A DNA stretch of 64,000 nt, taken from Lysobacter stagni. Its GTDB lineage: Bacteria; Pseudomonadota; Gammaproteobacteria; Xanthomonadales; Xanthomonadaceae. Location: the NCBI RefSeq assembly GCF_030053425.1, contig NZ_JASGBI010000001.1:1620001-1684000 (forward strand), written 5' to 3'. How positions within the stretch are numbered: position 1 is the stretch's first letter; each line of letters opens with the position of its first letter. A program made the translations under genes and the position numbers. Below, piece after piece: positions 28,722-51,487 of the stretch. The notes under the pieces are model-generated. The model was not told where the DNA came from. It did no database searches and saw only the letters and a program-made list of their open reading frames with translations.

Positions 28722-28828
28722 ACGGCCATCCATAGCGTCACGTAGCGGGCTTCGGGTCGCCCAGCCCGGCCATCCTGGCCGGGCGTTCTGTCACGCGCGC
28801 GGCAGTGCCGCGCAAGCGCGTGCCCTCA
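28722..28828 (-). repeat. Stop-codon-anchored palindromic element behind valS
   Basis: Reading the minus strand, the element starts with the valS end GGG-TGA-GG. An inner stem CGCGGCA-C-TGCCGCG follows, flanked by arms that still pair (CACGCG with CGCGTG), then GAACGCCC. The next palindrome occupies 28764-28772 and 28776-28784 (plus strand GCCCGGCCA / TGGCCGGGC around TCC). A GGGCGACCCGAAGCC block and a GCTATGGATGGC tail complete it. It has the same layout as the elements behind lptG, xerD and gspF. A decayed second unit (GGCACTACCGCG on the minus strand) lies at about 28660-28690, filling the valS-rimI gap. Confidence 0.8.
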
Positions 28829-31603
28829 CCCCAGCTTCGCGCGCTGCGCCGCCAGCGCCTCACGCTGCAGGTTCCAGTCGGCCAGGCGCTTGCGCTCCTG
28901 TTCGACCACGGCCGGCGGCGCATTGGCGACGAAGGTCTCGCTGGCCAGCTTGTTGTGGCACTTGGCGATCTCGCCGTCGACGCGCTTGATCTCCTTGTCC
29001 AGGCGCGTGCGTTCGGCGCCCAGGTCGACGAGGCCTTCCAGCGGCACCAGCAACTTCAGCCCGCCGACCAGGCCCGTGGCGGCGGCCGGCGAAGCCTCGC
29101 CGTCGGCGAGGACGGCGATCGATTCCAGCTTCGTCAGGAAGCGCAGCTGCGAATCGAAACGCGCGACGCGCTCGCGGTCGCTGGCGCTGCAGTCCGCCAG
29201 CAGTAGCGGGACGGCCTTCGAGGGCGCGACGTTCAGTTCGCTGCGGATCTTGCGCAGGCCGGTGACCATCGCCTTGAGCCACTCCACGTCGGCATCTGCC
29301 GCGGCGTAATCCTGCCCGGCGTAATCGGCCGCCTGCGGATAGGGGCGCAGCATGATCGTGGTCTCGGCAACGCGGAGTTTCGGCGCGATCTGCTGCCACA
29401 GCTCTTCCGTCACGAACGGCACCAGCGGGTGCAGCAGCGACAGCAGGCGTTCGAGCACGTACAGCAGCGTGTGGCGCGTGCTGCTCGCGGCCTCGGCGTC
29501 ATCGCCCTGCAGCGCGGGCTTGGCCAGTTCGACGAACCAGTCGCAGAACTCGTTCCAGGCGAATTCGTACAGCGCCTGCGAGAGCAGGTCGAAACGGTAC
29601 GAGGCGAAGTGCGTTTCGGCTTCCGTCGCGACCGTGGCCAGGCGCGAGAGGATCCAGCGCTCGGCGTCGGTCTTCGGCTGCGGCGTGCCGATGAAGTTCG
29701 CGCCCTCCGTGTTCATCAGCACGAAGCGCGTGGCGTTCCACAGCTTGTTGCAGAAGTTCTTGTAGCCCTCGGCGCGGCCGAGGTCGAACTTGATGTCGCG
29801 GCCGTGCGTGGCCAGCGCGGCGATGGTGAAGCGCAGCGCATCGGCACCGAATGCCGGAATGCCTTCCGGGAATTCCTTGCGCGTGGCCTTCTCGATCTTC
29901 TCCGCCATCTTCGGCTGCATCAGGCCGCCGGTGCGCTTGGCGACCAGGTCGTCCAGCGAAATGCCGTCGATCAGGTCCAGCGGGTCGAGCACGTTGCCCT
30001 TGGACTTGGACATCTTCTGGCCGTGCGCGTCACGGATCAGACCGGTGACGTACACATCGCGGAACGGCACGCGGCCGGTGAAATGGTCGGTCGCCATGAT
30101 CATGCGCGCGACCCAGAAGAAGATGATGTCGAAGCCGGTGACCAGCACGCTCGACGGCACGTAGCGGTCGAAGCCGCGCTGCGCCATCGCCGGTTCGTTC
30201 GGCCAGCCCATCGTCGAGAACGGCCACAGCTGCGAGGAGAACCAGGTCTCCAGCACGTCGCTGTCCTGCGATAGCGTCACGTTGCCGCCGAGGCCGTGCT
30301 TCGTGCGGACATCGTCCTCGTTGCGGCCGACGTAGATGTTGCCCTCATCGTCGTACCACGCCGGAATGCGATGGCCCCACCAGAGCTGGCGGCTGATGCA
30401 CCAGTCCTGGATGTTCTCCATCCAGTGGCGGTAGGTGTTGATCCAGTTGGCGGGGACGAACTTCACGTCGCCCTGCTCGACCAGCTCCAGCCCGCGCGCG
30501 GCGAGCGTGTCCATCTTCACGAACCACTGGTCGGTGAGGTAGGGCTCGATCACCTGGCCGGTGCGATCGCCACGCGGAACCTGCAGCTTGTGCGGCTTGG
30601 TGTCGACCAGGCGACCTTCGGCCTCCAGGTCGGCGAGCACGACCTTGCGCGCTTCGTAGCGGTCCAGGCCGCGGTACTTTTCCGGCGCGTTGTCGTTGAC
30701 TGCGGCGACCGGTGTGAAGATGTTGATCAGCGGGAGGTTGTGGCGCTGGCCGACGGCGTAGTCGTTGAAGTCGTGTGCGGTCGTGACCTTGACCACGCCG
30801 GTGCCGAACTCGCGGTCGACGTAATCGTCGGCGATGACGGGAATCTCGCGGCCCGTGAGCGGCAGCGTGACGGTCTTGCCGACGAGGTGCGTGTAGCGCT
30901 CGTCCTGCGGATGCACCATCACGGCGACGTCGCCGAGCATGGTTTCCGGGCGCGTCGTCGCCACCGTGAGTTCACCACTGCCGTCGCTCAGCGGGTAGCT
31001 GATCGACCACAGGAAGCCGTCTTCCTCTTCGTTGACGACCTCCAGGTCGGAGATCGCGGTCTTCAGCACCGGATCCCAGTTGACCAGGCGCTGGCCACGG
31101 TAGATCAGGCCGTCCTCGTGCAGGCGCACGAACGCCTCGATCACCGCGTCGGCGGCCATCGGGTCCATGGTGAAGACGCTGCGCGTCCAGTCGCCCGACG
31201 TGCCGATGCGGCGCATCTGGCGCTCGATGGTGTCGCCGGACTGCTGCTTCCACTCCCACACCTTCTCGACGAAGCCCTCGCGGCCCAGCGAGTCGCGCGT
31301 TTCACCCTTGCCTTCGGCGGCCAGGTTGCGCGAGACCACCATCTCGGTCGCGATGCCGGCGTGGTCGGTACCCATCTGCCACAGGGTGTCGAAGCCGCGC
31401 ATGCGGTGGTAGCGGATCAGCGCATCCATCAGCGTGTGCTGGAACGCATGGCCCATGTGCAGCGTGCCGGTGACGTTCGGCGGCGGCAGCAGGATGGAAT
31501 ACGGTTCGCCTTCTCCGCGCGGCTGGAATACGCCGCTGCGCTCCCACGCTTCGTACAGGCGGGTTTCGAACTGCTTGGGATCGTAGGAGGAGGCGAGGGA
31601 CAT
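28826..31603 (-). CDS. valS: Valyl-tRNA synthetase
   Basis: A 925-residue class Ia synthetase. HIGH motif [17 protein letters not shown] lies near residue 43, and the editing (CP1) domain includes [24 protein letters not shown] is [18 protein letters not shown] near 528, followed by an anticodon-binding helical bundle. A C-terminal coiled-coil arm ([34 protein letters not shown]) contacts tRNA in ValRS. It is 26 residues shorter than the E. coli enzyme as I recall it. The final codons GGG-TGA belong to the palindromic element that follows. holC and pepA lie upstream on the same strand. Confidence 0.98.
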
Positions 31604-33886: not shown

Positions 33887-34993
33887 ATGCCCAAGCTGGA
33901 CCGCTACCTGATCAGCGAATTCGCCCTGGCCATCCTGGCCACGCTGGTCGTGCTTCTGATCGTCACCGTGGGTGGCGCGTTCACCGACGTACTGCAGGAC
34001 ATCGCCCGCGGCCGCGTGCCGGCGGGGCTGATGCTGGCCCAGCTGGGCCTGGTGCTGCTGAAGTGGCTGCCGCTGATCCTGCCGCTGGCGATGATGCTCG
34101 GCCTGATGCTCGGCGTGGGACGCCTCTACCGCGATTCCGAAATGCCGGTGATCGCCTCGATCGGCGTCGGCCCGCGCCGGATGCTGCGCCCGTTGCTGAT
34201 GGTGGTGGGTCCGCTGGTGGCGGTGGTCGCGGCCTGCTCGCTGTGGCTGGGCCCGTGGGCCGACCGCGTGTCCAAGCAGATGATCAACGATGCCAACCGC
34301 AACCTGATCCTCGCGGGCCTTGAGCCGGGCACGTTCACCGGCATCCCCAACGGCGGCGGGGTGATCTATGTGGCGAGCATGTCCAAGGACGGTAGCCAGC
34401 TGGGGCGTGTGTTCGTCCACCGCTACGGCGAGGACGGGCGCGTCGATGTGGTCACCGCCAATCAGGGTGAGCTCATCGTCGAGCCGGGCGGCAACCGCTA
34501 TCTGACCCTGCGCCAGGGCCATCAGGTCGAAGGGCCGCTGGCCGGTGGCAAGGATTTCCGCCTGGTCACCTACGCCAGCAACGAGATCCTGTTGCCCGCG
34601 GTCGAAGCGAAGTTCGACCCGCGCGCCCCCGAGATGCTGCCCACCACCGCGCTGTTCGGCGACAGCCGGCGCGAGGCGAAGGCGCAGCTGCACTACCGCA
34701 TCGCGCCACCGCTGCTGGCGCTGGCCTTCGCGCTGATGGCGGTGCCGCTGGCGCGGAGCATGCCGCGGCAGGCCCGCTATGGCCGCATCGTGGTCGGTTT
34801 CCTGGCGTACCTGATCGGGCAGAACCTGATGACTGCCGGCCTGGGCTGGCTGGAGGACGGCAAGATCGCCATACAGCTGGGCCTGTGGTGGCTGTTGATC
34901 CCGGTGATGGCCATCGCGCTGTGGCTGTATTTCACCGACGGCAGTCTGGGTAGGCCACGCTCGGGCGTGCGCGCCGCTGGAGCGGCGCCATGA
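33887..34993 (+). CDS. lptF: LPS export permease LptF
   Basis: A 368-residue permease starting [20 protein letters not shown]. Three N-terminal membrane helices include [20 protein letters not shown] and [20 protein letters not shown] (the coupling helix region). A periplasmic beta-jellyroll spans about residues 130-265 and three C-terminal helices follow. With LptG and the LptB ATPase it extracts LPS from the inner membrane. It is the first gene of the lptF-lptG operon and overlaps lptG by 4 bases. Confidence 0.95.
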
Positions 34994-36090
34994 GGCTGCT
35001 GCCCAAGATCCACGACACCTACGTCGGCCGCACCGTGCTGGGCACGGTGGTCCTGACCTGGGCGGTGCTCGCCGGTCTGGACGTCATGCTGGGGCTGGTC
35101 AGCGAATTCGGCGACATCGGCAAGGGCCGCTATGGCCTGTCGGAAGCCTTCGTCTACATGGCGCTCAGCGTGCCGCGCCGGCTGTATTACCTGTTCCCGT
35201 ACGCGGCCGTGATCGGTTCGCTGATGGCGCTGGGCCAACTGGCGGCGACCTCCGAACTGACCGCGCTGCGCGCGGTGGGCCTGTCGCGACGACGTCTGGG
35301 GTTCGCCGTGGCGGGAGCCCTGGCCATCCTGACCGCGCTGATGGTGCTCAACGGCGAGAAGATCGCGCCGTGGACGCAGCAGCGTGCCGATGCGCTGAAG
35401 AGCGCGGCCAAGTCGGGACGCGCCGTGCCGCAGTACACGCAAGGTCTTTGGGCTCGCGACGGTGAGACCATCCTCAACGCCGACAGCGGGCAGGAAATGT
35501 CGCGCGGTGCCGAACGCTGGCTGCAGCTGCGAAGCGTCTCGCTGTATCGCGTCGGCGCGGATGGGCGCCTCCAGGAAATCGTGCACGCACAGACCGCCGA
35601 CCGGCGCGCGAATGGCTGGACGCTGCGCGACGTGACACGCACCCGCATCGGCGCCAACTCGGTGGAGCAGGAACGCCTGCCCACGATGCCGTGGACGTCG
35701 CGTCTGGACGCCACGATGCTGACCAGTGGCTCCGATCGGCCGCGCTATCTGTCGGCGGGCGACCTGCGCAGGGCCATCGACTACCGCCGGCGCAACGACC
35801 TGGACGCGTCGGAGTTCGAAGAACACTACTGGGGGCGCTGGTTCTATCCGATCAACGTGCTGGCCCTGTGCCTGGCCGCCGTGCCCTTCGCCTTCGGCAC
35901 GCTGCGCAGTGGCGGCATGGGCAAACGGTTGTTCATCGGCATCGTCTTCGCGCTGGGCTTCTGGCTGCTGCAGACGCAGTTCGTGAAACTCGCCGCGGTC
36001 TACAAGTTCGACTACCGCGTTGCGTACCTGTTGCCCACGGTGATCATGCTGGGAGCCTCCGCCTACCTCTTCAAGAAACGGAGTGGGTGA
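34990..36090 (+). CDS. lptG: LPS export permease LptG
   Basis: A 366-residue partner of LptF beginning [20 protein letters not shown]. It has [40 protein letters not shown] (cytoplasmic coupling region), a periplasmic domain, and final helices containing [20 protein letters not shown]. The last two codons, GGG-TGA, coincide with the start of the structured repeat that follows the gene, so the protein ends in Gly. Confidence 0.95.
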
Positions 36091-36367
36091 GGCAAGCCGC
36101 TTACGCGGCATTGCCGCGTGGCTTGCCGAACGCCCGGCCATGGATGGCCGGGCAGGGCGACCCGAAGCCAATGACGCACCGCCATGGACGGCACGCAATC
36201 ACCATTCGAAGTTGATGCCTACGCGGCATTGCCGCGTGGCTTGCCGAACGCCCGGCCATGGATGGCCGGGCAGGGCGACCCGAAGCCAATGACGCACCGC
36301 CATGGACGGCACGCAATCACCATTCGAAGTTGATGCCTACGCGGCATTGCCGCGTGGCTTGTCGAAC
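36088..36367 (+). repeat. Stop-anchored palindromic element with 118-bp tandem duplication behind lptG
   Basis: The element opens with the lptG TGA at 36088. Outer arms GGCAAGCC (36091-36098) and GGCTTGCC (36120-36127) enclose an inner stem CGCGGCA (36104-36110) / TGCCGCG (36112-36118). Palindrome GCCCGGCCAT (36132-36141) / ATGGCCGGGC (36144-36153) follows. The segment 36102-36219 is repeated identically at 36220-36337, and a third partial copy ends near 36367. Only the first copy has the complete outer stem. It fills most of the 330-base gap between lptG and the RDD gene, which holds nothing else recognisable. Confidence 0.9.
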
Positions 36368-36917: not shown

Positions 36918-37871
36918 ATGAGAGTCAGAACACCCGCGGAACGTCGTGCGATCGCCATGGCGTTGCCCGAACTCGGCGACGACGACGCGGGCGTGATCGG
37001 CCGTTTCCTCGACGCGATCTGGGCCGAAAACGGCCTCGCCCAACCCACGCTGGACAGCTATCGCCGCGACCTGGAACTGCTCGCGCGCTTTCGTAGTGGA
37101 AAGTCCGGAGGATTGGCTGGCGCCGATCGCGCCGCATTGTTCGATTACCTGGCCTGGCGTTCGCAGCACGGCTATTCGCCGCGCAGCAACGCGCGTCTGT
37201 TGTCGGCGCTGCGCGCCTTCTATGCATGGCTGGTACGCAAGGGCGACCGTGTCGACGATCCGACCGCGCTGCTGGAGCCGCCCAAGCTGCCGCGCTCGCT
37301 GCCCAAGGCCCTGGCCGAAAGCCAGATCGACGCGCTGCTGGCCGCGCCGGATGTGGCCTCGCCGCTGGGGCTGCGCGATCGCGCGATGCTGGAACTGATG
37401 TATGCCGCCGGACTGCGCGTGAGCGAGCTGGTCAATCTGCCCTCCACGGCGGTGAACCTGCGTCAGGGCGTGCTGCGTGTGATGGGCAAGGGCAGCAAGG
37501 AGCGTCTGGTGCCCCTGGGCGAAGAAGCCCAGCACTGGCTCGAGCGTTACCTCGCCCAGTCGCGCCCGCAACTGGCCGGCAAGCGCGCGCTGGCCCCGCT
37601 GTTCCTGTCGGCCAACGGCGAAGCGCCCTCGCGCCAGCAGTTCTGGCAGCTGGTGAAGCGATATGCCGTGCTTGCCGGCATCGACCCTGTCCGCATCAGC
37701 CCGCACGGCCTGCGCCACAGCTTCGCCACGCACCTGCTCAACCGCGGCGCCGACCTGCGCGCGCTGCAGATGCTGCTGGGCCACAGCTCGCTGTCGACCA
37801 CGCAGATCTACACGCTGGTAGCGCGCGAACAACTCAAGCAACTCCACGCGAAGCACCATCCGAGGGGATGA
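36918..37871 (+). CDS. xerD: Site-specific tyrosine recombinase XerD
   Basis: A 317-residue recombinase with an N-terminal SAM-like core-binding domain ([20 protein letters not shown]) and a complete catalytic set: Arg167 (GLRVSEL), Lys191 (GKGSKER), His263 and Arg266 ([12 protein letters not shown]), His289 (LGHSS) and nucleophile Tyr298 (TQIYT). Together with XerC it resolves chromosome dimers at dif. The C-terminus is HAKHHPRG; E. coli XerD, as I recall it, ends HHPRA, so the final Gly codon GGA-TGA seems to come from the adjoining repeat. dsbC lies downstream, a common arrangement. Confidence 0.96.
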
Positions 37872-37973
37872 GGCAGGCCGCTTGCGCGGCACTGCCGCGT
37901 GACCTGCCGAACGCCCGGCCATGGATGGCCGGGCCGGGCGCTCCGAAGCCGGCTGCGTACCGCCATGGATGGC
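37869..37973 (+). repeat. Stop-anchored palindromic element behind xerD (single copy)
   Basis: It starts at the xerD TGA. Arms GGCAGGCC (37872-37879) and GACCTGCC (37901-37908) pair at seven of eight positions and enclose CGCGGCA-C-TGCCGCG. GAAC and the palindrome GCCCGGCCAT / ATGGCCGGGC (37913-37934) follow, then a CCGAAGCC block and GCCATGGATGGC near 37961. The next ~185 bases up to dsbC contain a CG-rich stretch with no further recognised feature. Confidence 0.85.
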
Positions 37974-42100: not shown

Positions 42101-43048
42101 CGCTGGGACGAACTGTTCGATGCGTGGTGGTCCACCAGTCACGCGTTGCAGAAACTGCGCGACAACCCGGAATGCGCCGACGAGGAACGCACGGTCGCGC
42201 GCGACTTCAACGCGCCGGGCCTGAAGCCGAAGCTCACCTTCGACGCGGCCGATGACGTCGCCGCGCCGTTCGTGAACACCGGCGTGCGCCCGAAGGTCGC
42301 GATCCTGCGCGAGCAGGGCGTCAACGGTCAGGTCGAAATGGCCGTTGCGTTCGATCGTGCGGGCTTCGAGGCCGTCGACGTGCACATGAGCGACCTCATC
42401 GCCGGCCGCTTCAACCTGGCCGATTTCAAGGGCATCGCCGCGTGCGGTGGGTTCAGTTATGGCGACGTGCTCGGCGCGGGTCGCGGCTGGGCGACGTCCG
42501 TGCTCGAGCGCAGTGCGCTGCGCGACGCATTCGCTGCGTTCTTCGCGCGCACCGACAGCTTCTCGCTGGGCGTGTGCAACGGCTGCCAGATGCTCTCGCA
42601 GCTCAAGCCGATCATCCCGGGTGCCGAACACTGGCCGAAGTTCCTGCGCAACCGCAGCGAGCAGTTCGAAGCCCGCGTCGGCCTGCTGGAAGTGATCGAA
42701 TCGCCGTCGCTGTTCTTCCGCGGCATGGCCGGTTCGCGCATCCCGGTGGCGGTCGCGCATGGCGAAGGCCGCGCCGACTTCGACAGCGCACTCGACCAGG
42801 CCGCCGCGAATGTGTCGTTGCGCTACATCGACGGCAACGGCCAGACCGCCTCGCGCTACCCGCTCAATCCGAACGGCTCGCCCGATGGCATCACCGGCCT
42901 GACCAGCGCCGACGGCCGCGCCACCATCCTGATGCCGCACCCGGAGCGCACGCTGCGCAGCGCCAACTTCAGCTGGGCCCCGGCCGACTGGAGCGGCGAC
43001 TCGCCGTGGATGCGCATGTTCCGCAACGCGCGGGTGTGGGTGGGCTGA
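39140..43048 (+). CDS. purL: Phosphoribosylformylglycinamidine synthase
   Basis: A 1302-residue single-chain FGAR amidotransferase, close to the E. coli length. The N-terminal domain begins [20 protein letters not shown]. The ATP-binding synthetase part has [28 protein letters not shown] (catalytic His and FGAR site), [12 protein letters not shown] and [17 protein letters not shown]. The class I glutaminase has nucleophile Cys1146 (GVCNGCQML), His1267 and Glu1269 (MPHPERTLR). It performs the fourth step of de novo purine synthesis. The frame is open from 39065, but 39140 matches the family start. Confidence 0.97.
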
Positions 43049-43057
43049 CCGGTCTGA

Positions 43058-43083
43058 GAGGCGACGGCACGCGCCGTCGCCTC
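43058..43083. terminator. Bidirectional stem-loop between purL and the giant HhH protein gene
   Basis: GAGGCGACGGC (43058-43068) pairs perfectly with GCCGTCGCCTC (43073-43083) around ACGC, between two convergent genes. There is no T-run on either side. A partial echo (GTCGTCGCCTC) follows at 43088-43098. Confidence 0.65.
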
Positions 43084-43096
43084 ATGCGTCGTCGCC

Positions 43097-46000
43097 TCAC
43101 CGGAACGTAGGCGGTACCGGGAAGTTCGCCTGGAGGCCCGGCAGCGTGCCGTCCACCTGCGGACGGTTGATGCTGCCGATGCCCAGGTCGACGAAGCTAC
43201 CCGCATCCGGGAACGTCGCCGGTTGCGTGACCTGGATTCCGGTCAGGTGCTCGAAGGTGAAAGCCGAGCCACGACGCAGCAGATCGCGCTGCGCATTGGT
43301 GTGCGACGCTCCGCCCGGGAACATGAAGCCGACCAGCGCGTGCGCCACCTCGTGCGCCAGCGAAGCGCCGAGGATGCGTCCGACGACCATCACCGCCAGC
43401 GCATTCTGCGGATTGCTGGTGCCCGGCGGGGCATTGATCGCCGCCTGGATCGTCGCGATCACGCTGTCGTCGATGTCGGTGGCGTTCGGATCGGTCATCG
43501 CACCGGGGAAGACGTCGATGACCTCGTCGAAGTCGTTCGGCCCGACTGCCGCGCCGGCGTTGAAATTGCCATTGCGGTCGCGCGTGATGCCCAACAGGCC
43601 GTTGAGCGACGCCACCGCACCGCTCGGATCGCCGCCGATGTCGCAGTGCGTGAGGAACTCGTTGGGCAGGTGCGTGGGCACTTTCTCGGTGAACGGCGCG
43701 ATCGTCCACACCAGGCGCACGTTCGCATCGCTCAGCAGGTCCTCGGCGGTCGCCTTGGCCACGACCAGCACGTCGGCCTTCAACGTTGTCAGGCCGAAAC
43801 GCGTCAGCACGGTGTCGAACGCGCTGTTCTCGGTGATGCTGACGAACTGGGGAATGCTCAGATCGTACTTCTGGCTCTCCACCGACGTACCGTCGGCATC
43901 GAAGACGTCGAAATCGATCTTCGCCAGGCCGGGGCGCAGTCCCGCCACGTCGGCCTTGAGTCCGTTCTGCACGGTCTGCCCGTTGCCCAGCGTGTAGCGG
44001 CCCTTCTGGTCCGGCGGAACGCTCCAGCGGACCGAGCCGCCTTCGGGAATCGGCCGCGTGGTGACCTTGAGCACGGTGCGCCCGGTCTTGCTCGGGTTCG
44101 TGGCGCTCGGACTGAACGAGCGCGAGCGCGCCCACGCCAGCGCATCGGCGGGCTCGATGATCCACGAGCGCCCGCCTTCCGGCGGCATGCGCAGCGCGAG
44201 ATCCTCGCGTTCGCCACCACTGACGCGCGACATGTTGACCTCGCCGCCCGGACCGGTCGCGCGCTTGATCGCCTGCTTCACCTCGGGCGATGCGTTGAGC
44301 GACTGCTCTTCCGGCTTGGCCCCGCCCCCGATCATTCCGCTGATCGCGTTCTTGGTGAGATCCTGCGCCTGCGCGTCGCTGATGAGACCGCGTTGCTTGG
44401 CCGAATCGATCGTCTTGACCGCCTTGTCGATGTCGCGCGCCATCTTCGCCTGCAGGGCGAGATCGGCGGCCTTGCCGCCAAAGAACTGCGCCGTGTCGAA
44501 CGCGCCCTGGAGCGCGGCCGCGGCGTTCTTCTGCGTGCCTTCCAGGCCGGTGATGTCCTTGAACAGGTTCGGTGTTCCCAGCAGCTGCATGGCGGCAGCC
44601 AGCCCGGTGGGATCGGGCGCGGCCGGCGCGTTCTGCAGGTTGATGATCGGAGCGGCGAAATCCTTCGCCGTGAGGTCCGGCACCTCGGCGCGCCGCGTGT
44701 CGGTACTGACCGGAAGGATCGGCGGTGGCTGGTCGGGCAGTGGCGATTCCTCCCAGCGCCAGAAGCGTTCCTCTTCCTTGCGTTCGCAGGAATTGCAGGC
44801 ACCCATGACCGCCTCGGCGTATACACCGCGGGTGGGCACGGCGATGCGTGACGGCTCGATGGGCGTGTTGGGCTGGTAGTGCTCGAGCAGGTCGACGGGA
44901 TTCTCGATGTCCTGCCGATAGGTCGGATCCAGATGGAATCCGCGCGCGACCGGCATCACCAGGCAGTTGCCGACGATGCCGATCAGTTCGTTCTCCACCA
45001 CCGACGCAACGCTGCGGCCATCGGCGTTGGGCGCCTGGAAACCGTCGAGCAGCATGTAGCGGCGGTGCTCGCTCATGGCGTACCACAGGCAATGGTGGTA
45101 CTGCTCCAGGTGCTCGTTGAGATGATCGAGCAGGTTGCGCGACAACTCCTTGTCCTCCTGCTTCGGGTTGCGCAGCTCTTCACGGCTCAGCGGCGCGAAG
45201 ACGCGCGCGGCATCCCCGCCGACGACGTCGTTGAGGATGCGGGCGCCCTGGAACAGGTGTCCGCTGGAGTAATGCGTGCGATAGCGCAAGGTTCCCGACT
45301 CGACGATCACTTTCGAGCCGGTGGGCAGGATCTGCAGGAATGGGATGTTGAGCAGCCCGCTGATGTCGCTGATCTCGATGTACTGGATGTCGCGGCGTCG
45401 CACCGGCGGCAACGCGCCGGCGAGGTTCACCGACACGAACAGCGGTCGGTCGTTGATGAAATCGCTGACCAGCGTCGTGTCCACCGGCAAGCGCGTGCGC
45501 GTGCCGTTCGGGCTGACCGCAAAGAACTGCAGGTGCTGGACGAAGCGCTCGGCGATCTTCGGTGCCAGCTGTTCCTGGAAGATCCGGTCCTTCAATGCCT
45601 GTCCCTTCAGGTGCTGGCGATAGAAGTCGGAAGCGGAGATGGACGGGAACAGCGTGCCGAGGAACAGCCACGCATTCGCGTCGAAGTCGTCGTCCGCGTC
45701 CCTTGGGCGCGCGATCTCGAAGCGCAGCGTGATGTCGCCCTCCAGATGCTCGAGCAGCTGGTCCGCATAGGTGCCGTCGGGGAAATCGCTGCCGACGTAC
45801 TGGTTGCGGATGCGCTCCAGCGCATCGAATCCCGGTCGCAGGCGACGGTCACCCACCACGTTGCGCAGCGTGTTGCGCCAGCGCAATGCCTTTCCCGAAT
45901 CGAAGCGGCTCATGAGCAGCGGAACGAACAGGCATTCCTGCACGTCGGTCAGGCGCTGGCGTACCAGCAGGTGGCGCAGCACTTCGAAGTACTGGATGGT

Positions 46001-49894: not shown

Positions 49895-51112
49895 ATGCCC
49901 CTCTACTACTACAAGGCCCTCAATCCGCGCGGCGAACTGCTCGACGGCCAGATGGAGGCGGTCAGTGGGGCGGAGGTGGTGGCGCGATTGCAGGAACAGG
50001 GTCATCTTCCGGTCGAGGCCAAACTGGCCAGCGAAGCCTCCAGCGCGTCGACGTGGAAGGGGCTGTTCAAGCCGCGACCGTTCGCAGGCGCGCGCCTGGT
50101 GCAGTTCACGCAGCAGCTGGCCACGCTGCTGGCGGCCGGCCAGCCACTGGACCGCGCGCTGGGCATCCTGCTGGAACTGCCGGAAGACGAAGCCGCACGA
50201 CGCACCATTGGCGACATCCGCGATGCGGTGCGCGGCGGAACCTCCCTGTCGACCGCGCTGGAGCGCCAGCACGGCACGTTCTCGCGCCTGTACGTCAACA
50301 TGGTGCGCGCGGGCGAGGCCGGCGGCAGCCTGCACGAGACACTCGCGCGCCTGGCCGATTACCTGGAGCGCTCGCGTGCGTTGCAGGGGCGCGTGATCAA
50401 CGCGCTCATCTACCCGGCGATCCTGTTGTGCATGGTGGGCCTGAGCCTGCTCTTCCTGCTGGGCTACGTCGTGCCGCAGTTCGCGGCGATGTACGAAAGC
50501 CTGGATGCACAGCTGCCGATCTTCAGCCGCATCGTGCTCGGCATCGGACTGTTCGTGCGCGACTGGTGGATCGTGTTGCTGGTGCTCCCCGCGCTGGCGC
50601 TGTGGTGGTTCGACCGCAAGCGTCGCGATCCCGCCTTCCGCGAGGCGTTGGACGCCTGGCTGCTGCGCAACCGCATGGCAGGCCCGCTGGTGGCGAAGAT
50701 CGAGACCGCGCGTCTGGCACGCACGCTGGGCACGCTGGTGCGCAACGGAGTGCCGCTGATGTCGGCGCTGGGCATCGGACGCAACGTGCTGGGCAACCGT
50801 GTGCTGGCCGCCGATGTCGAAGCGGCCGCGGAGGAAGTGAAGAACGGCGTGCCGCTGTCGATGGCGCTGGGGCGTGGCAAGCGCTTTCCGCGACTGGCCT
50901 TGCAGATGATCCAGGTCGGTGAGGAATCCGGCGCGCTGGACGCGATGCTGGTGAAGACGGCGGAAACCTTCGAGCAGGAAACCGCGCTGGCCCTCGACCG
51001 CATGCTGGCGGCGCTGGTGCCCGTGGTGACGGTGGCGCTGGCTGCGATGGTGGGCACGGTCATCATCGCCGTGCTCGCCCCCATCTACGACCTCACCAGC
51101 GCGATTGGGTGA
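49895..51112 (+). CDS. gspF: Type II secretion inner-membrane platform protein GspF (XpsF)
   Basis: A 405-residue polytopic protein beginning MPLYYYKALNPRGELLDGQM. It has two homologous cytoplasmic GspF domains (LVQFTQQLATLLAAGQPLDR; ARLARTLGTLVRNGVPLMSA). Three membrane helices lie near residues 172-195 (LIYPAILLCMVGLSLLFLLG), 220-242 and 372-396. It forms the platform above the GspE ATPase and follows gspE by 3 bases. The last codons ATT-GGG-TGA run into a tandem structured repeat that separates it from gspG. Confidence 0.95.
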   Translation: MPLYYYKALNPRGELLDGQMEAVSGAEVVARLQEQGHLPVEAKLASEASSASTWKGLFKPRPFAGARLVQFTQQLATLLAAGQPLDRALGILLELPEDEAARRTIGDIRDAVRGGTSLSTALERQHGTFSRLYVNMVRAGEAGGSLHETLARLADYLERSRALQGRVINALIYPAILLCMVGLSLLFLLGYVVPQFAAMYESLDAQLPIFSRIVLGIGLFVRDWWIVLLVLPALALWWFDRKRRDPAFREALDAWLLRNRMAGPLVAKIETARLARTLGTLVRNGVPLMSALGIGRNVLGNRVLAADVEAAAEEVKNGVPLSMALGRGKRFPRLALQMIQVGEESGALDAMLVKTAETFEQETALALDRMLAALVPVVTVALAAMVGTVIIAVLAPIYDLTSAIG

Positions 51113-51487
51113 GGCAGGCCGCTTGCGCGGCACTGCCGCGCGGCCTGCCGAACGCCCGTCCATGGATGGACGGGCCGGGCATTCCGGAGCCCTTCGCATC
51201 GCGCCATGGATGGCATCGATCACGTCAACATATGTGGGCACTGCCGCGCGGCCTGCCGAACGCCCGTCCATGGATGGACGGGCCGGGCATTCCGGAGCCC
51301 GTCGCATCGCGCCATGGATGGCATCGGTCACGTCGACATATGCAGGCACTGCCGCGCGTCGCCGAACGCCCGTCCATGGATGGACGGGCCGGGCATTCCG
51401 GAGCCCGTCGCATCGCGCCATGGATGGCATCGGTCACGTCGACATATGCAGGCACTGCCGCGCGGCCTGCCGAACGCCCGTCCATGC
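51110..51487 (+). repeat. Stop-anchored palindromic element, 3.4 tandem units inside the type II secretion cluster
   Basis: It begins at the gspF TGA. Arms GGCAGGCC (51113-51120) and GGCCTGCC (51142-51149) enclose CGCGGCA-C-TGCCGCG (51126-51140). Palindrome GCCCGTCCAT (51154-51163) / ATGGACGGGC (51166-51175) follows. Units beginning GGCACTGCCGCG start at 51129, 51237, 51345 and 51451, giving periods of 108, 108 and 106 bases; the fourth is cut near 51487. The third unit lacks two bases in the right arm. The later units lack the gspF-side left arm and are separated by a GTCGACATATG-type joint. Confidence 0.9.

Follow-up and report, generated by a model that had tools for sequence, protein, structure and literature searches.

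A dispersed family of structured repeats in Lysobacter whose first bases often coincide with the glycine codon and stop codon of the preceding gene

What kind of repeat begins exactly where a gene ends? The question is raised by a 64,000-nucleotide stretch of Lysobacter stagni DNA, hereafter the window (assembly GCF_030053425.1, contig NZ_JASGBI010000001.1, positions 1,620,001 to 1,684,000 of the forward strand), in which a sequence-only reading had noticed one and the same hairpin-rich repeat behind four genes, valS, lptG, xerD and gspF. That reading had taken it for either a mobile repeat resembling the repetitive extragenic palindromic (REP) sequences or an element of the 3' untranslated region (UTR). 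Bacterial repeats usually sit only loosely near gene ends. Here repeat and reading frame are locked, since the first bases of the element are the last codon and the stop in about three quarters of the genus copies examined. The existence of the family, its structure, its spread through the genome and its anchoring at stop codons are solid; its mobility is strongly indicated, by indirect evidence. The interpretation that we favor, with a probability of roughly 0.6, is that of a non-autonomous REP-like dispersed palindromic repeat which supplies the Gly-stop of its host gene and is often tandemly amplified. A hairpin locked to the stop in this way constitutes a natural, replicated test of the effect of a stable hairpin on termination and mRNA decay.

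All four window genes end in Gly-stop, and these six bases are bases 1-6 of the element. The head reads GGGTGAG at valS (minus strand, 28831 down to 28725), lptG (36085) and gspF (51107), and GGATGAG at xerD (37866). In the following list the genes rest on an open reading frame (ORF), a family match and the sequence itself, the element copies on a covariance model and the arrays on Tandem Repeats Finder (TRF).

28725 to 28831, minus strand: element copy at the valS stop, with divergent outer arms (109.3 bits)
28826 to 31603, minus strand: valS, ending KLG-stop (GGG TGA)
34990 to 36090, plus strand: lptG, ending Ser-Gly-stop (AGT GGG TGA)
36085 to 36192, plus strand: element copy at the lptG stop (127.4 bits)
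36102 to 36367, plus strand: tandem array behind lptG, 2.3 units of 118 bp, inner units without the head
36918 to 37871, plus strand: xerD, ending HHPRG-stop (GGA TGA)
37866 to 37973, plus strand: single element copy at the xerD stop (117.9 bits)
49895 to 51112, plus strand: gspF, XpsF-type type II secretion protein, whose last codon GGG and stop TGA are element bases 1-6
51107 to 51214, plus strand: element copy at the gspF stop (124.7 bits), with head GGGTGAG at 51107-51113, hairpin 1 at 51113-51149, GAAC at 51150-51153, hairpin 2 at 51154-51175 and tail hairpin CGCCATGGATGGC at 51202-51214
51129 to 51486, plus strand: tandem array behind gspF, 3.3 units of 108 bp, inner units without the GGRTRAG head (also model matches at genome positions 1671213 and 1671325)

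Aligned copies define a unit of about 108 bases with three hairpins and short further helices: the head GGRTRAG, a bulged hairpin 1, GAAC, hairpin 2 and a tail hairpin. In the consensus, hairpin 1 consists of an 8-pair outer stem, a bulge of 3-4 bases on the 5' side (e.g. CTT) and a 7-pair inner stem with the loop A-N-T or similar; its arms are variable yet nearly perfectly paired. Hairpin 2 has 9 pairs and a closing loop resembling CATGGATG, and 3' of it stand GGGC..CCGAAGCC and then the tail hairpin CGCCATGGATGGC. Both the common layout and the compensated arm changes that had been described for the four loci are present in the sequence. With one mismatch allowed, the inner-stem pattern has 14 matches in the window against 2.17 expected, a number reached by 0/100 shuffles; because the pattern is palindromic, these are seven places, each counted on both strands. 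No Rfam 15 family matches the window over its gathering score, and at E <= 5 only two chance-level matches appear, in the gspF array.

How far does the family extend? The covariance-model search that had been suggested for the four loci returned many further copies. Built from 11 own-genome copies, 10 of them at stops, the model has 44 matches in the 3.93 Mb genome, array units being counted separately. The exact inner-stem pattern has 58 matches in the whole genome (31 forward, 27 reverse), compared with 0 for a reversed control. An integron attC site was among the identities considered; the hosts are housekeeping genes scattered over the chromosome and include, besides lptG, gspF, xerD and valS, the genes moaA, moaD, thiS, napC, lysS, pilQ, pyrB, rpoA and sufB, an NAD kinase gene, a phosphoenolpyruvate carboxylase gene and an rtcB-like gene. 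Some host names are approximate: YciA and CheW are weak family matches below the cut-off, SufB was matched through its core domain, YahK is only a zinc alcohol dehydrogenase, the ABC permease names are weak or lack family support, and one host, which we take to be a UPF0016 protein, obtained no support from family matches.

Nine of eleven congeners have 13-53 model matches at E <= 1e-4, and the other two (G007 and G010) have one weak match each. Lysobacter prati (L070), in which lptG and xerD have no element, groups with these two on the LptG tree. Since a single genus holds species of both kinds, it is a clean target for finding the mobilizing enzyme. At E <= 1e-6 and with stricter filters, 19/151 genomes matched in an order-wide scan and 6/150 in a phylum-wide scan, the own genome included each time; four of the six belong to one other family of the class. 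There, all five copies listed have a head that ends a long open frame with coding-like GC content at third codon positions (GC3), among them an XerD-like integrase ending HHPRG and a RimK-like protein. Genomes from other families of the order (G031, G032 and G035) contain 49, 28 and 8 model matches with the same architecture; 11 of the 15 copies inspected in these three are preceded by an open frame of fewer than 60 codons, and thus probably do not lie at stops. The picture is mixed for the remaining genera within the own family. A search of plasmids and phages yielded one plasmid record with the element, NZ_CP010410.1 of Xanthomonas sacchari, and no phage. This plasmid carries two units and the beginning of a third, arranged as an array (L385:1370-1640); an annotated ABC permease coding sequence (CDS) ends on the head TGA, the array follows, and the units bear no feature in the gene table. 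Among the open-access PMC papers listed for it, our literature search found no description of a GGRTRAG-headed stop-codon element family, and no title among the matches listed for the element's sequence strings deals with a repeat family.

The anchoring at stop codons was determined on 109 copies from six genomes. Of the 44 own-genome matches 33 were used; the 11 left out are inner array units or remnants, among them the two inner gspF units, and one of the 11 (L122) begins GGGTGA. The 76 congener copies (16/31 from G001, 14/37 from G002, 16/29 from G004, 18/53 from G009 and 12/33 from G011) are the best-scoring among the matches listed. A copy was called stop-located when the frame closed by the head TGA or TAA passed a strict GC3 coding test. 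An exact head was read in 96/109 copies, and the head closes a coding frame in 80/109, or 77/96 when the exact head is required. In 3/109 a frame other than that of the head is coding, and in 26/109 no frame passes, although at least two of these 26, behind MoaD and ThiS, are still at stops, as the family match runs to the last residue. Thus, about three in four of the genus copies examined, and four in five of those with an exact head, lie at stops. Bases 1-7 of the head each carry 1.6-2.0 bits of information and the preceding 15 bases at most 0.47 bits, in a sample that was filtered for the head. Copies away from recognized gene ends, in the genus and in distant families, retain the head as well. 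The description of the repeats as beginning exactly at stop codons applies to most of the copies examined, namely the 80 and at least those behind MoaD and ThiS; about a quarter of the genus copies are at no recognized stop, and the 11/15 distant-family copies mentioned above are probably at none.

The second property of the family is that pairing is kept over sequence. In an alignment of 59 distinct copies, taken from 43 named records of Lysobacter, Luteimonas and relatives and fitted to the model, pairing holds in 94.5% of the cells, and 27 of the 32 pairs have changed on both sides; 0/500 shuffles reach any of five measures, and sliding the pair partners destroys the signal. Two-sided changes occur in all six helices, though for the two-pair helix 1 in one sequence only. 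An alignment-free test gave the same answer: own arms are paired to 0.964 versus 0.693 when permuted, with 0/2000 permutations reaching the observed mean. Among 62 hairpins with distinct 5' arms, the arm pairs perfectly with its own 3' side in 49/62, compared with 151/3782 cross pairs. Outer arms are about 96% Watson-Crick (766/800 cells, only arms with at least 6/8 matches being kept). RNA folding z-scores of the window copies are -4.2 for lptG, -1.8 for xerD, -3.3 for gspF and -2.2 for valS; the folding energy of single copies is only moderately unusual, and the covariation is the strong evidence.

Is the structure held at the level of DNA or of RNA? The sequence-only reading had seen selection on structure in DNA or mRNA. 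Its premise, that pairing is preserved, stands; selection on the mRNA need not follow. If RNA were selected, G·U pairs would be expected to be more tolerated than A·C, and no overall excess was found among the mispairs of distinct stems: 26 G·T versus 29 A·C in total, made up of 7 versus 6 in the outer arm, 10 versus 5 in the inner stem and 9 versus 18 in hairpin 2. RNA-level selection acting through G·U tolerance was therefore set aside. The near equality makes the palindrome look as if it were kept as DNA, either by recognition of a folded single strand or by palindrome correction, and would be compatible with an RNA effect too. These figures bear on a first rival, a conserved cis-acting mRNA element: a hairpin at the stop codon, selected for termination, ribosome rescue or 3' decay control, the sequence of which drifts while its structure and place are held. 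Such an element would account for a position that coincides with the stop, on the coding strand, for the two-sided changes across the helices, for the recurrence of xerD, lptG, gspF and rtcB as hosts across genera or families, and for the terminator-like hairpins that it precedes at YciA and PilQ. It would also suit the orientation of the next gene, which was read behind those 78 of the 80 stop-located copies that have enough flanking sequence and is co-directional in 46, convergent in 25 and undecided in 7.

The turnover of the copies speaks to this rival. On a quick LptG tree, with four ends re-read by eye as occupied, the 47 taxa scored for lptG require at least 12 changes of occupancy, and the 37 scored for xerD at least 8. 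We then compared copies in the own genome and three congeners, the occupied ends being judged by eye. Identity of hairpin 1 is 0.729 at orthologous stops and 0.716 between different genes (35 vs 676 pairs, p 0.30), and that of hairpin 2 is 0.818 at orthologous and 0.821 at non-orthologous stops (p 0.57). Vertical inheritance of orthologous-stop copies thus receives no support from hairpin 1 or 2, the tail giving a faint hint that is taken up below. Homology with empty relatives resumes 3' of the element, at gspF seven bases after the stop of the relative in two species. At moaA, a start-like ATG comes immediately after the stop in two element-free species; in the own genome the element stands between the two. 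Frequent gain or loss, copies at orthologous stops that are unlike each other and two species of the genus nearly devoid of copies all argue against the conserved mRNA element, as do the missing G·U excess and the genus and distant-family copies that are not at a recognized stop; we consider it unlikely.

In a second rival the covariation itself is of mutational rather than selective origin. Template switching in replication (quasipalindrome correction) can rewrite the arms of a palindrome together, and with gene conversion it might have done so in a selfish or inert repeat, an idea that is compatible with the REP-like interpretation. The high Watson-Crick content of the outer arms, in which G·T and A·C are about equally rare, and the orthologous copies that are hardly more alike than others would both be explained. 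However, the head, the bulge, GAAC and the hairpin-2 loop are constant while 62 different outer arms exist, so that a change followed by correction would have been needed many times over, and dispersal and placement at stop codons would be left without explanation. We give this rival a small chance.

If the element brings the Gly-stop, what did it meet at the gene end? We compared 22 host genes with five congeners; a gene counted as a host if the head of an own-genome copy ended its frame and the frame either passed as coding or matched the MoaD or ThiS family. For 18/22, at least one element-free orthologue, read by eye, has a native Gly as last residue at the same place. The background, consisting of the lptG neighborhood in the 43 named records with lptG and xerD removed, has Gly ends in 13/170 (p 4e-17 for the difference if ends are independent); two other background sets (Gly 8/33 and 14/45) contain host genes and were left out. 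The codon used differs with occupancy. Element-free orthologous ends are mostly GGC or GGT (25/44 at lptG and xerD). Among 86 lptG and xerD ends in 48 loci, GGG or GGA was called automatically in 42/42 occupied versus 15/44 empty ends, and after four ends had been re-read by eye as occupied the counts are 46/46 versus 11/40. TAG stops are found at nine empty ends and at none of the occupied ones (n=42). At lptG the codon follows occupancy in 6.9/8 independent pairs, with none against (median p 0.016), and at xerD it does so less clearly (4.1/6, none against, median p 0.125). PilQ ends QR in the element-free G006, G007 and G010 and QRG in the element-bearing G000, G003 and G008; as read from these ends, PilQ has gained a Gly codon. 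LysS and YciA ends differ from those of relatives by one or two residues. Gene ends of the form GGR-TRA-G without an element are rare, with 1/170 in the named records, 0/33 in stretches of G007 and G010 and, by eye, 2/45 in stretches of G003, G006 and G008.

A course of events that would fit these ends can be outlined. The mobilizing enzyme would recognize a folded single-stranded DNA hairpin, and the same hairpin would keep the palindromes perfect. Integration would be steered by agreement between the head and a gene end of the form GGN-TRA, or an in-frame GG nearby. The protein would keep its end or differ there by one or two residues, and insertions of this kind would survive. In a bolder version, which we consider less likely than not, the repeat would be aimed at gene ends: it would recognize the terminal Gly-stop and swap in its own Gly-stop head, leaving the protein unchanged, and would have returned repeatedly to the same genes (xerD, lptG, gspF, rtcB, moaA, moaD, thiS) in different species, for some of them also in other genera and in a second family of the class. 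Its mobilizing enzyme would then belong neither to the Y1 transposases nor to the reverse transcriptases.

Three loci show the head doubled. At L259, L266 and L283 (from G009 and G004), an apparent gene end GGRTGA is directly followed by a second head or head-like sequence (GGGTGAG; GGGGGAG in L266), which may be a raw insertion product. The doubled heads would suit a variant of the favored interpretation in which the element is targeted to a GGRTRAG heptamer already present and contributes no part of the head itself. Insertion of IS200/IS605-type elements occurs 3' of a fixed short motif, and the GTAG heads of REPs are a precedent. The variant would also explain why the head is constant in the copies and why GGGTGAG or GGATGAG stands at the stop of certain orthologues that have no recognized element (e.g. 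NapC in G007). It seems improbable to us, in view of the rarity of empty GGR-TRA-G ends, the GGC or GGT read in most empty orthologues, the Gly codon gained by PilQ and a genus without a Y1 transposase over the cut-off.

Which enzyme could mobilize the repeat? PF01797 (RAYT, the REP-associated tyrosine transposases, and IS200/IS605) is common in the family (75/119 genomes), and genes with this domain occur in five of the six element-bearing genomes outside the genus. The RAYT gene that the sequence-only reading had proposed to look for was not found: PF01797 exceeds its cut-off in 0/12 genus genomes. RVT_1, the reverse transcriptase domain, has no match in the same 12 genomes. Y1 transposases, none of them over the cut-off in the genus and none with copies beside them where we looked, and reverse transcriptases (0/12) were accordingly both rejected as candidates for the mobilizer.

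Several results count against a mobile REP-like repeat that supplies the Gly-stop. Within the genus, the search for PF01797 gave one sub-threshold match, in G001 (22 vs 23 bits), and nothing above the cut-off; G031, with 49 element matches in an assembly 89% complete, has no PF01797 match. No R1 element match was found in 53 distinct loci around such genes in relatives (31 + 23, with L151 common to both sets; 51 with PF01797 over the cut-off), many of them from genomes not known to bear the element; R1 itself is tuned to one genus. The mispair subsets are small and uneven, the inner stem leaning to G·T and hairpin 2 to A·C. Identity of the tail is slightly higher at orthologous sites (0.700 vs 0.667; p 0.08, having been 0.03 when two rows were still missing). 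The gspF array is separated from the resumed homology by about 150 additional bases that the element does not account for. The empty sites come from other species and are too diverged for a target-site duplication to be seen, and no insertion was caught directly. The recurrence of xerD, gspF and rtcB ends as hosts across genera and families would also fit an old inheritance with a function. Finally, 8/12 GGRTRAG heptamers in the window are without an element, so that the heptamer alone is not the signal or target; taken with the rarity of empty GGR-TRA-G ends, this ties insertion or retention to Gly-stop gene ends.

How does the family compare with known repeats? REP super-families are described as carrying a GTAG or CGTC tag and a single palindrome of 20-40 bp, and GTAG REPs often provide a TAG stop to flanking ORFs (Di Nocera et al. 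2013, PMC3733652). The sequence-only reading had known of no described element that starts with the stop codon; in view of the GTAG REPs of that paper, the statement is not upheld. Like REPs and the bacterial interspersed mosaic elements (BIMEs), the Lysobacter family is made up of dispersed palindromes that bear a short constant head on one side and frequently lie close to the 3' ends of genes, and the head can supply a stop. Unlike them, the head GGRTRAG gives Gly and TGA or TAA rather than TAG, and the unit has about 108 bases and several hairpins instead of 20-40 bp, with about three in four of the genus copies examined at stops (PMC3733652). For REPs flanking orthologous rayt genes in Stenotrophomonas and Xanthomonas, palindromicity is reported to be kept while the sequence changes (Nunvar et al. 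2010, PMC2817692). Those repeats come from the same bacterial family and share this behavior, but have another head, and the Lysobacter element is found in 12 genus genomes that have no RAYT over the cut-off, with no copies in the RAYT loci examined (PMC2817692). The SMAG repeats of Stenotrophomonas maltophilia occur as monomers, dimers and tandem arrays, with units of 50-103 bp in the examples given, and at one locus the usual repeat is replaced by another (PMC2613905). They too are short palindromic repeats that form arrays; the GTAG head, the 23-24 bp unit and the hairpin sequence are different (PMC2613905). E. coli REPs at most 15 nt from a stop are cited as stalling ribosomes and lowering translation, and 446 of 4,072 predicted REPs lie that near (RepRanger, PMC12306157). 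In both cases a stable hairpin stands within reach of the terminating ribosome, but in E. coli the distance varies, whereas in Lysobacter the head itself is the stop (PMC12306157).

With REPs the family therefore has in common a dispersed multi-copy palindrome and a terminus that supplies a stop codon (80/109, and the X. sacchari CDS). It has neither the GTAG or CGTC tag, nor a single palindrome of 20-40 bp, nor a cognate Y1 transposase in the genome (0/12). Because these three defining features are lacking, we do not call the element a REP, though it is REP-like in behavior. The initial proposal of a REP-like mobile repeat or a 3' UTR element is to this extent upheld by a dispersed, structured family with covarying arms, and is weakened by the want of a cognate transposase.

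What might the element do once it is in place? At YciA and PilQ, the hairpin with a T run lies 3' of the element, so that the element should be transcribed. The 3' UTR would then open with the element, and the native terminator would come after it. An ordinary intrinsic terminator, which the GC-rich hairpins behind stops might suggest, was rejected: in 11 aligned copies there is no T run after hairpin 1 (followed by GAAY) or hairpin 2 (followed by N-GGGY), and at YciA and PilQ a separate T-run hairpin stands further downstream. We regard this explanation as having next to no chance. A strong hairpin would thus lie within the region covered by the terminating ribosome, where it may shield the upstream mRNA or delay termination, as reported for the E. 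coli REPs near stops; any such effect on termination or decay is suggested by position only.

Two further observations concern the ends of host proteins. In the own genome, the products of moaD (L037), thiS (L038) and moaA (L044) end Gly-Gly, with an element at each stop. At the rtcB-like gene of G008 (L235:13423-13529), the head reads GGGGGAG, the stop is lost and the frame continues through the element, perhaps an element-born stop decaying into a C-terminal extension. Within the window, positions 43043-43103 contain another strong hairpin with short repeats behind another open frame (GGC TGA C...), outside the element family; TRF reports a 15-bp repeat at 43071-43099.

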